Source: Edwardsiella hoshinae NBRC 105699 = ATCC 33379 (GTDB lineage: Bacteria > Pseudomonadota > Gammaproteobacteria > Enterobacterales > Enterobacteriaceae). From it: 64,000 nt of DNA. A model generated the notes under the pieces. That model did not search any database. It was not told the DNA's origin and saw nothing but the letters and a program-made list of their open reading frames with translations. The translations under genes were made by a program, and so were the position numbers. Position 1 is the first letter of the stretch. Every line of letters begins with the position of its first letter. Shown one piece after another: positions 11,095 through 60,811 of the stretch. The stretch lies in NCBI RefSeq assembly GCF_000474215.1, contig NZ_BAUC01000018.1, forward strand, positions 1-64,000, given 5' to 3'.

Positions 11095-11170
<76 letters not shown>

Positions 11171-11217
11171 AATTTAGAAGGTCGCTATGCGGCTGGATGA
11201 AAAAAAGCAGTACCATT

Positions 11218-11293
<76 letters not shown>

Positions 11294-11344
11294 AACTTCC
11301 AAACACCATTACTGTTATGGTGTCGATGCCAGAAGCATCACTCT

Positions 11345-11420
<76 letters not shown>

Positions 11421-33240: not shown

Positions 33241-33284
33241 CAGCCGCCCACAAATACGTTCCTTGCCTCCATGGGCTGCGGCTG
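33241..33284 (+). promoter_or_regulatory. Structured rpsF leader, possible S6:S18 feedback site
   Basis: CAGCCGC (33241-33247) pairs with GCGGCTG (33278-33284), continued by CCA/TGG after a three-base bulge on the 3' side. Leaders of this operon in other bacteria hold a bulged stem bound by the S6:S18 complex, which represses translation. The position fits; identity with that motif is not proven. Confidence 0.4.
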
Positions 33285-33313
33285 ACCCCGACAGGAGGCT
33301 GAATAATCCGTAA

Positions 33314-33721
<408 letters not shown>

Positions 33722-39036: not shown

Positions 39037-40386
39037 TTATTTTACCGTTTGCTGAGAGGCTTCGTTTTCACTGCCCCCCTCACCGGGTTGAGTGGCCGGG
39101 AGACGTTCAGCCAGACGGGTAACCAACAGTTGATCAATCTTATAGCTGTCGATATCCACCACTTCGAATTTATATCCCGCATATTTGACGGCGTCGGTAC
39201 GTTTGGGGATCTTGCGCAACATGTACATCATGAAACCACCGATGGTTTCGTAGTTGCTGGACTGGGGAAACTCCTCGATATCCAAGACTCGCATTACGTC
39301 ATCGATTGGGGTGACACCTTCGACCAGCCACGAGTTTTCGTCACGGGCGATGATCTGCTCCTCCTGCCCCTGACCGACCAGGTCACCCATCAGAGTGGTC
39401 ATCACATCGTTTAGCGTGATTACCCCGACCACCAAGGCATACTCGTTAAGGATTACCGCGAAGTCTTCGCCAGCGTTCTTAAAGCTCTCCAATGCCTCGG
39501 AGAGTGTCAGCGTATCCGGCACGATCAACACATTACGGATTTGTACCCCGCTGCTGAGTACCAAACTTTGGTTGCCGAGTACGCGATTAAGCAGATCCTT
39601 GGAGTCGACATAACCCACGACGTGGTCGATAGCGCCATCGCAGACTAAGAACTTGGAGTGGGGATGGGTCGATACCTTCTCTTTGATGCCCTCTTCGCTC
39701 TCACTCAGATCGAAGTAGATGATGCTTTCACGTGGCGTCATGGAGGAGGGAACGGTGCGTGACTCCAGTTCAAACACATTCTCGATGATCTCGTGCTCTT
39801 GCTTACGCAGTACCCCGGCCAGCGCTCCCGCCTCGACCACGGCGTAGATATCATCTGGCGTAATATCATCCTTACGGACCATCGGAATCTTGAACAGGTG
39901 AAAGATCAGGTTAGCCAGGCCGTTAAAGAACCACACCAACGGGCGGAACAGTAATAGGCAGAAACGCATCGGGTTGACAATCCGTATGGCCACCGCTTCG
40001 GGGGAGATCATACCGATGCGCTTCGGTGTCAGGTCGGCGAACAAGATGAAGCTGCCGGTGACTAATACGAAGGAGCAAATAAAGCTGGCTTGCTGGGAGA
40101 CATCCAGCGGCATGAAGCGGTCGAACAACAGGCGGAAGGCTGGCGAGAAAGCGGCGTCGCCAACGATACCACCGAGAATGGCGACGGCGTTGAGGCCAAT
40201 CTGCACCACAGTGAAGAAGTACCCTGGTTGTTCTTGCAGCGCCATGACGCGCGCCGCGTTGATATCCCCCTCGTCCGCCATGGTTTTCAGCTTCATCTTG
40301 CGCGAGGCGGCCAGAGATATTTCTGAGATCGAGAAAAAGGCACTGATCGCGATCAGTAGAATAATCAGTAATATACTGTTTAACAT
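39037..40386 (-). CDS. paeA: Polyamine exporter PaeA (YtfL)
   Basis: Inner-membrane protein of the CorC/HlyC (UPF0053) family. In Salmonella and E. coli it exports cadaverine and putrescine and protects stationary cells from polyamine stress. The protein has 449 residues. A DUF21 membrane domain with four hydrophobic segments (about 1-190, SEISLAASRKMKLK) comes first. Two CBS domains (about 200-330) follow, then a CorC_HlyC C-terminal domain ending near residue 425. The tail is Gln/Glu/Ser rich. The ribosome site is weak and lies at the end of a long folded leader (40387-40561). Confidence 0.93.
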   Translation of the reverse strand: MLNSILLIILLIAISAFFSISEISLAASRKMKLKTMADEGDINAARVMALQEQPGYFFTVVQIGLNAVAILGGIVGDAAFSPAFRLLFDRFMPLDVSQQASFICSFVLVTGSFILFADLTPKRIGMISPEAVAIRIVNPMRFCLLLFRPLVWFFNGLANLIFHLFKIPMVRKDDITPDDIYAVVEAGALAGVLRKQEHEIIENVFELESRTVPSSMTPRESIIYFDLSESEEGIKEKVSTHPHSKFLVCDGAIDHVVGYVDSKDLLNRVLGNQSLVLSSGVQIRNVLIVPDTLTLSEALESFKNAGEDFAVILNEYALVVGVITLNDVMTTLMGDLVGQGQEEQIIARDENSWLVEGVTPIDDVMRVLDIEEFPQSSNYETIGGFMMYMLRKIPKRTDAVKYAGYKFEVVDIDSYKIDQLLVTRLAERLPATQPGEGGSENEASQQTVK

Positions 40387-40570
40387 AATCTATCCGTATT
40401 AACCGGGAACGGTCCGGGAGGCCGGAAAGGCGGTGTAACGCCATCGGGAATATTGTGTATTGGGGCCGGTAGAGGATCCCCCCGGAGTTTACCGGGTTGT
40501 CTTAGCAAACCCGGGTCAGGCACCGCACCAGATCGGATGGCTGGGGGCGCTTGACCCGGTTAGTATAGCA
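40387..40570 (-). promoter_or_regulatory. Structured 5' leader of paeA with extended -10 promoter
   Basis: On the minus strand TGCTATACT (40562-40570) is an extended -10 box predicting a start near 40555. The transcript would then open with a long stem: 40552-40560 pairs with 40509-40518 (ACCGGGTCA/TGACCCGGGT, one bulge). Inside, GCGCC/GGTGC and CCAG/CTGG stack. CCCGG/CCGGG and ACCG/CGGT hairpins follow, the last about 12 bases before the start codon. The leader is about 170 bases and ends at a weak ribosome site. This looks like a cis-regulatory RNA; I recognise no named class. All pairings were made by eye. Confidence 0.5.
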
Positions 40571-40658
40571 GGAGCAACAAGCAACCAGCTAGTGGTGAAA
40601 ATCTGCCCGCTATCGTTCTAACCCTTTGCTATGACACTAATTAGGGGCAACCTTCCCT

Positions 40659-41291
40659 TTACTCCGGCAGACATACGCCAATGCCGCCCAGGCCGCAATA
40701 CCCTTGTGGGTGTTTATACAGGTACTGTTGATGCGCCTCTTCCGCATAGTAGAAGGGGCCTGCGGGCGTGATCTCGGTAGTAATGGCGCGAAGATCGCCC
40801 GCCTGTTGCATCGCTTGGGCGAAATGCGTCCGGCTGTCCTGGGCGGCCTGCAATTGCTGTGACGTCAGTGGGAACAATGCTGAACGGTATTGGCTACCGA
40901 TGTCGTTACCTTGGCGCATGCCCTGGGCTGGATCGTGGTTTTGCCAGAATAGGCGCAGCAGCGTGGGATAGTCGATACGTGTTGGATCGAAGACCACACG
41001 TACCGTCTCGGCGTGACCGGTTTGACCGCTGCATACCTCGGAGTAGGTGGGGTTTGGCGTCACTCCACCACTGTAGCCAGCCGCGGTGCTATACACCCCC
41101 GGTTGCTGCCAGAAGAGGCGTTCGACGCCCCAGAAGCAGCCCATGGCAAACAGCGCCTCTTCCATACCGCGAGGGACGCCATAGCGCGCATGGCCGTTAA
41201 CCGCATGCAGCGGGTTAATCATCATTGCTTGGCTACGCCCGGGTAACGCCTGAGTGGGGGCCAAGGGCAGGGCATCGTGAGCGTTGTGCAA
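40659..41291 (-). CDS. msrA: Peptide methionine sulfoxide reductase MsrA
   Basis: Reduces methionine-S-sulfoxide in proteins after oxidative damage. I place the start at TTG 41289-41291, five bases after GGAGG; this leaves 14 residues before the conserved ALPGR, exactly as in E. coli. The protein has 210 residues. The catalytic Cys52 lies in GCFWGVE, substrate residues in YEEAHQQYL-type context ([11 protein letters not shown]), and resolving cysteines near the end in [11 protein letters not shown]. Divergent from tamA; its own downstream sequence is the paeA upstream region. Confidence 0.94.
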
Positions 41292-41384
41292 AATATCCTC
41301 CAAAAGCTAATAAATAGGCAGTTGAGCGGCGAAAAATCTGAAAACGTATGCGGAGCCGTCCTAGGCAAGAGGTGACTCGTTGTA

Positions 41385-60640: not shown

Positions 60641-60742
60641 AGTCCCAAGGAAGCCGATAGTTGAAGGTGATATGTTATGTGCCTGCCATACTAAGGCGCA
60701 ATGTGGGTCAAAGTAAACGATGATACTTCGCCGACTCTAGGC

Positions 60743-60811
60743 TAGAATGGCCGGCAAAAGACAGAATTGTGCCTGACCGGGATCTTGTTTCTGGCCAGGA
60801 TTATTTTGTGT
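60743..60811 (+). ncRNA. Possible GraL-like greA leader RNA
   Basis: A -10 TAGAAT (60743-60748) before greA starts a leader in which CCTGACC (60772-60778) pairs with GGCCAGG (60793-60799, one mismatch), followed by a T-rich tail TTATTTTG. In E. coli a terminator at this place makes the small RNA GraL from the greA leader. Position and hairpin fit, but the sequence match is unverified and the -35 is weak. Confidence 0.35.

Follow-up and report, generated by a model that had tools for sequence, protein, structure and literature searches.

Two classes of described systems are relevant to the leader of paeA (ytfL), the gene for an exporter of putrescine and cadaverine. One comprises messengers such as ompA and papA, in which, as a review describes, 5'-terminal stem-loops act as stabilisers. 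The other comprises transporter genes with Rho-regulated leaders, such as mdtJI and ytfL of E. coli. Expression of a fusion carrying the E. coli ytfL 5' UTR and ORF under a fixed promoter is reported to rise by a factor of more than 2 when rho is mutated (PMC7815308), and Adams et al. place the Rho signal in either the 5' UTR or the ORF, leaving unspecified which one. Like these genes, paeA combines a transporter product with a structured leader and a C-rich stretch ahead of a weak ribosome site. However, mdtJI is described as working via a translated upstream ORF (PMC7815308), whereas inspection of the paeA leaders revealed no conserved upstream ORF.

The same locus has also surfaced in surveys of small RNAs. 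Rfam places the sRNA STnc450 (RF02051) here; an E. coli RNA termed ytfL5' is listed as a ncRNA with its start shifted downstream (PMC7967276); and the E. coli ytfL-msrA sRNA is reported to be lower in an hfq mutant and to lack an intrinsic terminator (PMC4070566). A table from EHEC assigns about 20 reads to STnc450 (PMC5331693). In Salmonella, a paeA promoter fusion is described as unaffected by low Mg2+ or constitutive PhoQ and as falling slightly without PhoPQ, with the PhoPQ response being carried by read-through from msrA; the authors call the induction of PaeA in low Mg2+, when polyamines are needed, counterintuitive and suggest control at the protein level (PMC9972920). Among the open-access matches listed there was no dedicated study of the paeA/ytfL leader or its RNA, and among the matches listed there was no Edwardsiella transcript map covering paeA.

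Here we consider the paeA leader of Edwardsiella, within a 64-kb stretch of DNA (the window), together with its equivalents in other Enterobacterales. The explanation that we tentatively favour, at a probability of about 0.4, is that a 5'-end hairpin and Rho-linked premature termination operate in a conserved enterobacterial paeA leader, the steps in Edwardsiella being extrapolated from the E. coli papers and the sequence. Such a conserved leader of one exporter would unite STnc450, the ytfL5' ncRNA, the Rho termination of ytfL and perhaps the Hfq-dependent ytfL-msrA RNA. It would also provide, besides the protein level, another candidate layer of control for PaeA in low Mg2+, this one post-transcriptional. 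Should the leader do no more than cap the RNA, its significance would be modest.

Promoter, hairpins and ribosome site of the Edwardsiella leader

The identification of the gene as paeA in the initial annotation is confidently upheld by a match of its product to the NCBIfam PaeA equivalog NF052568 (754 bits against a cut-off of 500), and the product contains the Pfam domains CNNM, CBS and CorC_HlyC. By analogy with Salmonella, the upstream msrA gene is a possible origin of read-through RNA into the leader; tamA is divergent. The features of the locus are:

39037-40386, minus strand: paeA, encoding a 449-aa polyamine exporter of the CNNM/CorC family
40392-40395, minus strand: weak Shine-Dalgarno sequence GGAT, read directly
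40424-40430, minus strand: CCTTTCC, a pyrimidine tract some 40 nt upstream of the start codon
40446-40475, minus strand: C-rich, G-poor, rut-like stretch with 14 C and 2 G in 30 nt
40466-40495, minus strand: possible hairpin with a G-rich loop, 40495-40488 with 40473-40466
40492-40514, minus strand: hairpin II, 40514-40508 with 40498-40492 (CCGGGUU/AACCCGG)
40511-40559, minus strand: hairpin I, outer stem 40559-40552 with 40518-40511 plus stacked inner helices
40562-40570, minus strand: extended -10 box TGCTATACT, read directly
40659-41303, minus strand: msrA (TIGR00401), upstream of paeA on the same strand, 272 nt apart

Several elements had been described previously from the letters of this DNA, and they are present: TGCTATACT reads exactly at 40570-40562, 40559-40552 pairs with 40518-40511 in a long stem with stacked inner helices, and the weak ribosome site is the GGAT at 40395-40392, the two G residues of which are predicted to be mostly paired (unpaired probability 0.06-0.09). 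The excess of pairing is confined to the first hairpin. None of 500 dinucleotide shuffles folded as well as the hairpin I region 40561-40509 (z -4.25). The whole leader (-64.7 kcal/mol) had z -1.41, being matched or bettered by 18 of 200 shuffles, and in a second run z -1.64, matched or bettered by 24 of 500; hence the assertion that this much pairing is uncommon was not borne out. The two or three further hairpins that had been proposed lie at the chance level, with z +0.31 for 40508-40387 and z -0.44 for the part with the ribosome site. As for the possible hairpin with the G-rich loop, it has 8 bp in three species and one mismatch in both the window and the genome G200, and being nearly invariant it offers no covariation either way; the fold of 40500-40460 was no better than those of shuffles.

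The 5' end of the RNA had been placed at the base of the long stem. The stem stands, but this 5' end would not be the usual one: the -10 hexamer ends at 40562, so that the canonical +1 falls at about 40555, four bases inside the outer stem, and weakens it. With this start, 40555-40509 has z -1.12 and 69 of 500 shuffles fold as well, as against z -4.25 from 40561. RNA from 40555 retains the inner hairpin and loses the outermost pairs of hairpin I; when the whole leader is folded, the 3' arm thus released forms the second hairpin (40514-40508 with 40498-40492). Hairpin II, which competes for the outermost 4 bp of hairpin I, is accordingly present in the minimum-energy leader fold from 40555 and absent from that from 40561. 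Starts at 40556 or earlier retain the outer stem, and an 85-nt test piece from 40555 adopts yet another fold, unlike that of the whole leader. The part of hairpin I that lies 5' of about 40555 is transcribed only with an early start or read-through from msrA. Pairing in related genera would favour transcription starting close to the first G in the stem. The second base pair of the stem, located in most rows at base five past the hexamer, is intact in all 31 aligned Serratia/Yersinia-like leaders, as G-C, G-T or A-T, and this suggests either that the RNA starts that early or that the read-through RNA has a role.

The C-over-G excess of the C-rich stretch is equalled or exceeded within 6.2% of 5106 overlapping 175-nt stretches of the window. 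An ORF of 173 codons (39923-40444, minus strand) is out of frame with paeA and overlaps its start; its ATG at 40444 is present in 5/5 Edwardsiella and by eye is without a Shine-Dalgarno sequence. A conserved upstream ORF in the paeA leader was rejected, as frames vary among genera in the printed leaders that were inspected. The known RNAs found in the window are ordinary ones, namely the RpsF leader, the greA leader and three tandem tRNA genes (33243-33328, 60685-60806 and 11095-11417, respectively).

Pairing and sequence conservation across Enterobacterales

Within Edwardsiella, the leader matches four other genomes at 79-90%, and the promoter (40610-40562) is 94-96% identical to theirs. Identities to the three more distant species were as follows: promoter, 94-96%; hairpin I, 63-66%; 40508-40460, 84%; 40459-40387, 84-86%; intergenic DNA upstream of the promoter, 56-62%. 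Hairpin I thus drifts at close to the upstream rate, yet 91% of its cells are paired over the five genomes, which indicates that it is maintained by pairing and not by its letters; the rest of the leader is maintained by sequence. Four pairs of hairpin I have changed on both sides, with the covariation score reached by 27/500 shuffles and the number of both-side pairs by 71/500, the structure having been obtained by consensus folding of these very sequences. In hairpin II pairing is complete (100%), and two neighbouring pairs have switched both partners, from UA to CG; here the score was reached by 8/500 shuffles and the number of both-side pairs by 246/500. Sliding the partners by 1-3 columns reduces pairing to 25-48% in hairpin I and 14-57% in hairpin II. 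The EDWARDSIELLA-only counts come from five genomes and very few independent events.

For a wider survey, upstream regions of paeA were drawn from genome contigs, whole genomes and E. coli K-12, giving 196 loci that reduced to 175 distinct leaders; L148 had no tblastn match, and L106, L133 and L176 were excluded because they had no ATG at the expected start. Simple sequence rules divided the leaders into 74 E. coli-like, 52 Serratia/Yersinia/Edwardsiella-like (defined by the context GGA[TC]A[GA]A[TC]TATG), 42 Erwiniaceae-type (selected by the motif AAAATGACA) and 7 others. A -10 box could be placed in 162/175, the remaining 13/175 having no recognisable promoter; a first promoter pattern missed CGCTATACT promoters, and the totals given here derive from a later placement. 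A CTGGCG-like block occurs 8-32 nt before the TATAMT box (within 40610-40562 and its equivalents) and is unlike a usual -35; the raw counts are 62/74 E. coli-like, 30/52 Serratia/Yersinia-like, 35/42 Erwiniaceae-type and 2/7 others. A CCYTTYC-type tract is present in 34/52 Serratia/Yersinia-like (2.9 expected in shuffles) and 61/74 E. coli-like leaders (4.1 expected), and in 1/42 Erwiniaceae and 1/7 others.

A hairpin recurs in other genera at the same place as hairpin I of Edwardsiella. The 60 nt after the -10 box have a mean z of -2.47 in 93 non-redundant leaders, versus -0.63 upstream (91), -0.74 in paeA coding sequence (51) and -0.57 in the last 60 nt before the ATG (93), all of these controls being drawn from paeA loci. 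The difference between the 5' stretch and the upstream control has a Mann-Whitney p of 6e-16 when related leaders are treated as independent. By group the mean z of the 5' stretch is -3.03 in Serratia/Yersinia-like (28), -2.53 in E. coli-like (44), -1.85 in Erwiniaceae-type (17) and -0.55 in other leaders (4). Exceptions without a strong hairpin I are L039 (H. alvei), at z +0.3, and L131, L138, L163, L137, L120, L065 and L069, with z between 0.0 and 0.7. Beyond the hairpin the mid-leader varies between lineages in length and content, and the Edwardsiella leader had no blastn match to similar leader DNA in E. coli. The Yersinia leader L046:2326-2485 carries an inserted mid-leader element that scores below threshold against Rfam Ysr49 (34 bits, where the gathering score is 95).

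Covariation was assessed by an imitation of R-scape, using a G statistic with average-product correction, a FastTree tree and a null in which substitutions are redistributed along the tree; two-set E values are p times the number of proposed pairs. For the Serratia/Yersinia-like set, 59 leaders including the 'other' class were reduced to 31: 6 had no placed promoter, 2 were duplicates and 20, the five Edwardsiella included, were omitted after their folds had been seen; the structure was the consensus fold of the same sequences. In this alignment a stem of 7 bp is paired in 27-31 of the 31 leaders, and one of its pairs, C-G in 20 and T-A in 11, reaches a two-set E of 0.0005, the other six pairs being individually non-significant. 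Among the E. coli-like leaders 54 of 74 were aligned, from which five misfits were removed to leave 49, and the structure was the single-sequence minimum-energy fold of K-12. Four of 30 pairs fell at a two-set E<0.05, namely three in the 5' hairpin (E 0.0025, 0.0074 and 0.0375) and one in a hairpin overlapping the ribosome site (E 0.046). When all column pairs were tested none was significant, the best E. coli-like pair having E 0.68, so that significance is attained only in the two-set test on the proposed structure. In the ribosome-site region covariation was absent from 43 Serratia/Yersinia-like sequences. The comparison across species envisaged with the initial annotation thus returned covarying pairs, in two groups, and of its proposal of a cis-regulatory RNA the sequence comparisons support a conserved structured leader, and the sensing role finds no support. 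Since the pairing of the hairpin is retained in many relatives despite changes of letters, it is probably functional.

In E. coli-like leaders (e.g. L116:3714-3752, minus strand) a conserved GAGGAUC precedes the hairpin directly, AUCUGGCC/GGYCGGAU, which has one covarying pair, and AARAUAUG or similar stands just after it. This hairpin may place the upstream Shine-Dalgarno sequence next to the start codon, or it may mask the inner GGAU. CsrA was considered as a regulator and set aside: GGA motifs are present, and a Term-seq study is the sole paper on CsrA and ytfL among the matches listed.

STnc450, premature termination and competing explanations

STnc450 matches the start of the K-12 paeA leader at 77 bits, and its model was scanned on K-12 and then on 20 + 4 of the 74 E. 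coli-like loci. Of the 20 chosen loci 18 had matches at E<=0.1, with 14 exceeding the gathering score, and no match was found in 18 further loci (14 Serratia/Yersinia-like and the 4 E. coli-like classed by rule), nor in 8 Serratia/Yersinia-like and 3 Erwiniaceae-type loci. In the Edwardsiella window it has no match at the gathering score of 37 bits, nor at E up to 10 in 40330-40720. The Rfam models (4227 families) yielded, over 40330-40720, only chance-level SNORD82 and Xoo2 matches and no riboswitch or cis-regulatory class, so these covariance-model scans rule out a known Rfam element in the Edwardsiella leader. STnc450 and the Edwardsiella element lie in the same location, which runs from the -10 box across the leader's first hairpin, and share a hairpin kept with some covariation; the Edwardsiella hairpin is larger, nearer the -10 box and without a T run. 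Hence, the 5'-end hairpin is retained well beyond the loci with a detectable STnc450. Judging by position, the E. coli ytfL5' RNA probably corresponds to STnc450, and the ytfL-msrA RNA would be STnc450 too. However, the K-12 interval also has an ES036 match, and the Hfq-dependent RNA may therefore be another one.

According to the explanation that we favour, the messenger would present hairpin I at or near its 5' end, perhaps hairpin II, then a C-rich, poorly structured stretch and a weak ribosome site. The hairpin would tuck in the 5' end and slow the attack of RppH and RNase E on the full messenger. With a poor translation start, Rho would load on the C-rich stretch at 40475-40446 and stop transcription early, and 3' exonucleases would trim the product as far as the hairpin, so that a short 5' RNA resembling STnc450 of E. 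coli would persist as a by-product. Our analysis contributes the conserved position of the hairpin with its excess folding, some covariation, the C-rich stretch and the finding that the E. coli counterpart is STnc450; the Rho dependence of ytfL and the listing of ytfL5' as a ncRNA are brought in by analogy from the E. coli papers. Against this explanation, some leaders are without a strong hairpin I, the C-rich stretch ranks only in the top 6% of the window, and hairpin I of Edwardsiella is unexceptional at the canonical +1, where 69/500 shuffles are as good. This last point bears on the likeness to ompA and papA, which is one of predicted fold: in both cases a stable hairpin stands a few bases from the (here likely) 5' end, but z for the Edwardsiella stem drops from -4.25 at a 40561 start to -1.12 at 40555.

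The strongest competitor, which we nevertheless consider somewhat unlikely, holds that the hairpin only protects the 5' end and that the leader entails neither attenuation nor regulation. Hairpin I is the clearest excess of folding in the three main groups and the window, and in the 31-sequence alignment it begins 3-5 nt after the -10 hexamer, which would fit a stabiliser of the ompA/papA type as the review describes it. This account is at odds with the reported rise of E. coli ytfL in a rho mutant (PMC7815308), with the covariation of one pair, at E 0.046, in the ribosome-site hairpin of the E. coli-like leaders, and with the 84-86% conservation of 40508-40387 in the more distant Edwardsiella, more than a passive spacer would need.

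A trans-acting, Hfq-bound sRNA of the STnc450/ytfL5' type as the chief product of the leader, with the control of paeA secondary, appears improbable. Rfam does classify STnc450 as an sRNA at this place, and the E. coli literature describes an Hfq-dependent ytfL-msrA sRNA (PMC4070566) and lists ytfL5' as a ncRNA (PMC7967276). Yet hairpin I is conserved mainly in its pairing, no shared seed was seen across groups, STnc450 went undetected in the window, the 18 further loci and the 8 Serratia/Yersinia-like and 3 Erwiniaceae loci, and its reads in the EHEC table number about 20 (PMC5331693); the ES036 match again means that the Hfq-dependent RNA may be a different one.

Still less probable is that the inverted repeat functions as DNA, serving as an operator for a repressor, or that it is a remnant of an msrA terminator. 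It does overlap the start region, and a T run follows a stem located within the first 75 nt in 23/68 E. coli-like leaders, where this stem could be an intrinsic terminator, as well as in 13/42 Erwiniaceae and 6/47 Serratia/Yersinia-like leaders. Covariation together with free drift of letters, however, fits pairing in RNA and not a protein-DNA site; the scan found no terminator-like site on the minus strand of the Edwardsiella leader, nor any in the K-12 leader, and Salmonella is reported to read through from msrA (PMC9972920).

The sensing of a polyamine, Mg2+ or pH by a switch in which hairpins I and II alternate with each other and with a long-range helix of 40486-40478 and 40421-40413 strikes us as very unlikely. 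Some bases are common to hairpins I and II, each of which has undergone paired changes in Edwardsiella; the helix belongs to the optimal fold when the RNA begins at 40555, and with a 40561 start it lies 0.9 kcal/mol above the optimum. Nevertheless, the arms of this helix are identical in five species and so prove nothing, and the 175 nt of 40387-40561 contain eight CCGG palindromes, the densest occurrence in the window (mean 1.15, with only one other place reaching 7), which allow many alternative pairings by chance. The mid-leader differs between lineages, as noted above, and low Mg2+ is described as leaving the Salmonella promoter fusion unaffected (PMC9972920). With no Rfam riboswitch and no conserved unpaired core seen across genera, the earlier suggestion that the RNA senses a polyamine finds no support, and a protective 5' cap beside a region of premature termination is the more likely role of the hairpin. 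An equally unlikely elaboration is a two-state paeA leader in which hairpins I and II and the long-range helix compete and Rho and the ribosome read the balance, tuning export to the cation level, with the middle rebuilt in each lineage and, in Erwiniaceae, by means of a domesticated dispersed palindromic repeat.

The Erwiniaceae leader RNA and a dispersed repeat

The 42 Erwiniaceae-type paeA leaders (e.g. L094:2354-2478) contain a near-invariant RNA of about 120 nt with the layout TCTGCCCC ... GGCGCAGACATTTTTGGCACGGATAGC ... GCTGCCCAGGCCAAAAATGACAAG. Its 10-bp stem is identical in 42/42 and hence provides no covariation evidence, and Rfam had no match covering the RNA in the three loci scanned (L094, L071 and L108). 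A covariance model, R1, made from an alignment of 30/42 leaders, scored at least 80 bits in 4/295 genomes of the order and about 30-42 bits in six further genomes. A widespread riboswitch was therefore rejected, given the 4/295 genomes and the resemblance of the weaker matches inspected (L201-L205, L207) to a dispersed repeat. When one weaker match was used as a DNA query it proved to be such a repeat, with 22 matches in genome G040 and 3 in the genome from which the Edwardsiella window derives; blastn with this query did not match the copies in the G424 and G146 leaders. Judged from model scores and visual comparison, the Erwiniaceae leader RNA looks like a fixed relative of this dispersed palindromic repeat, which we presume may be YPAL-like. 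The matches in the genome of the window lie outside the window, at G000:C110:79412-79536 and at G000:C107:114581-114664 and 114727-114767, and perhaps represent two copies, one of them interrupted.
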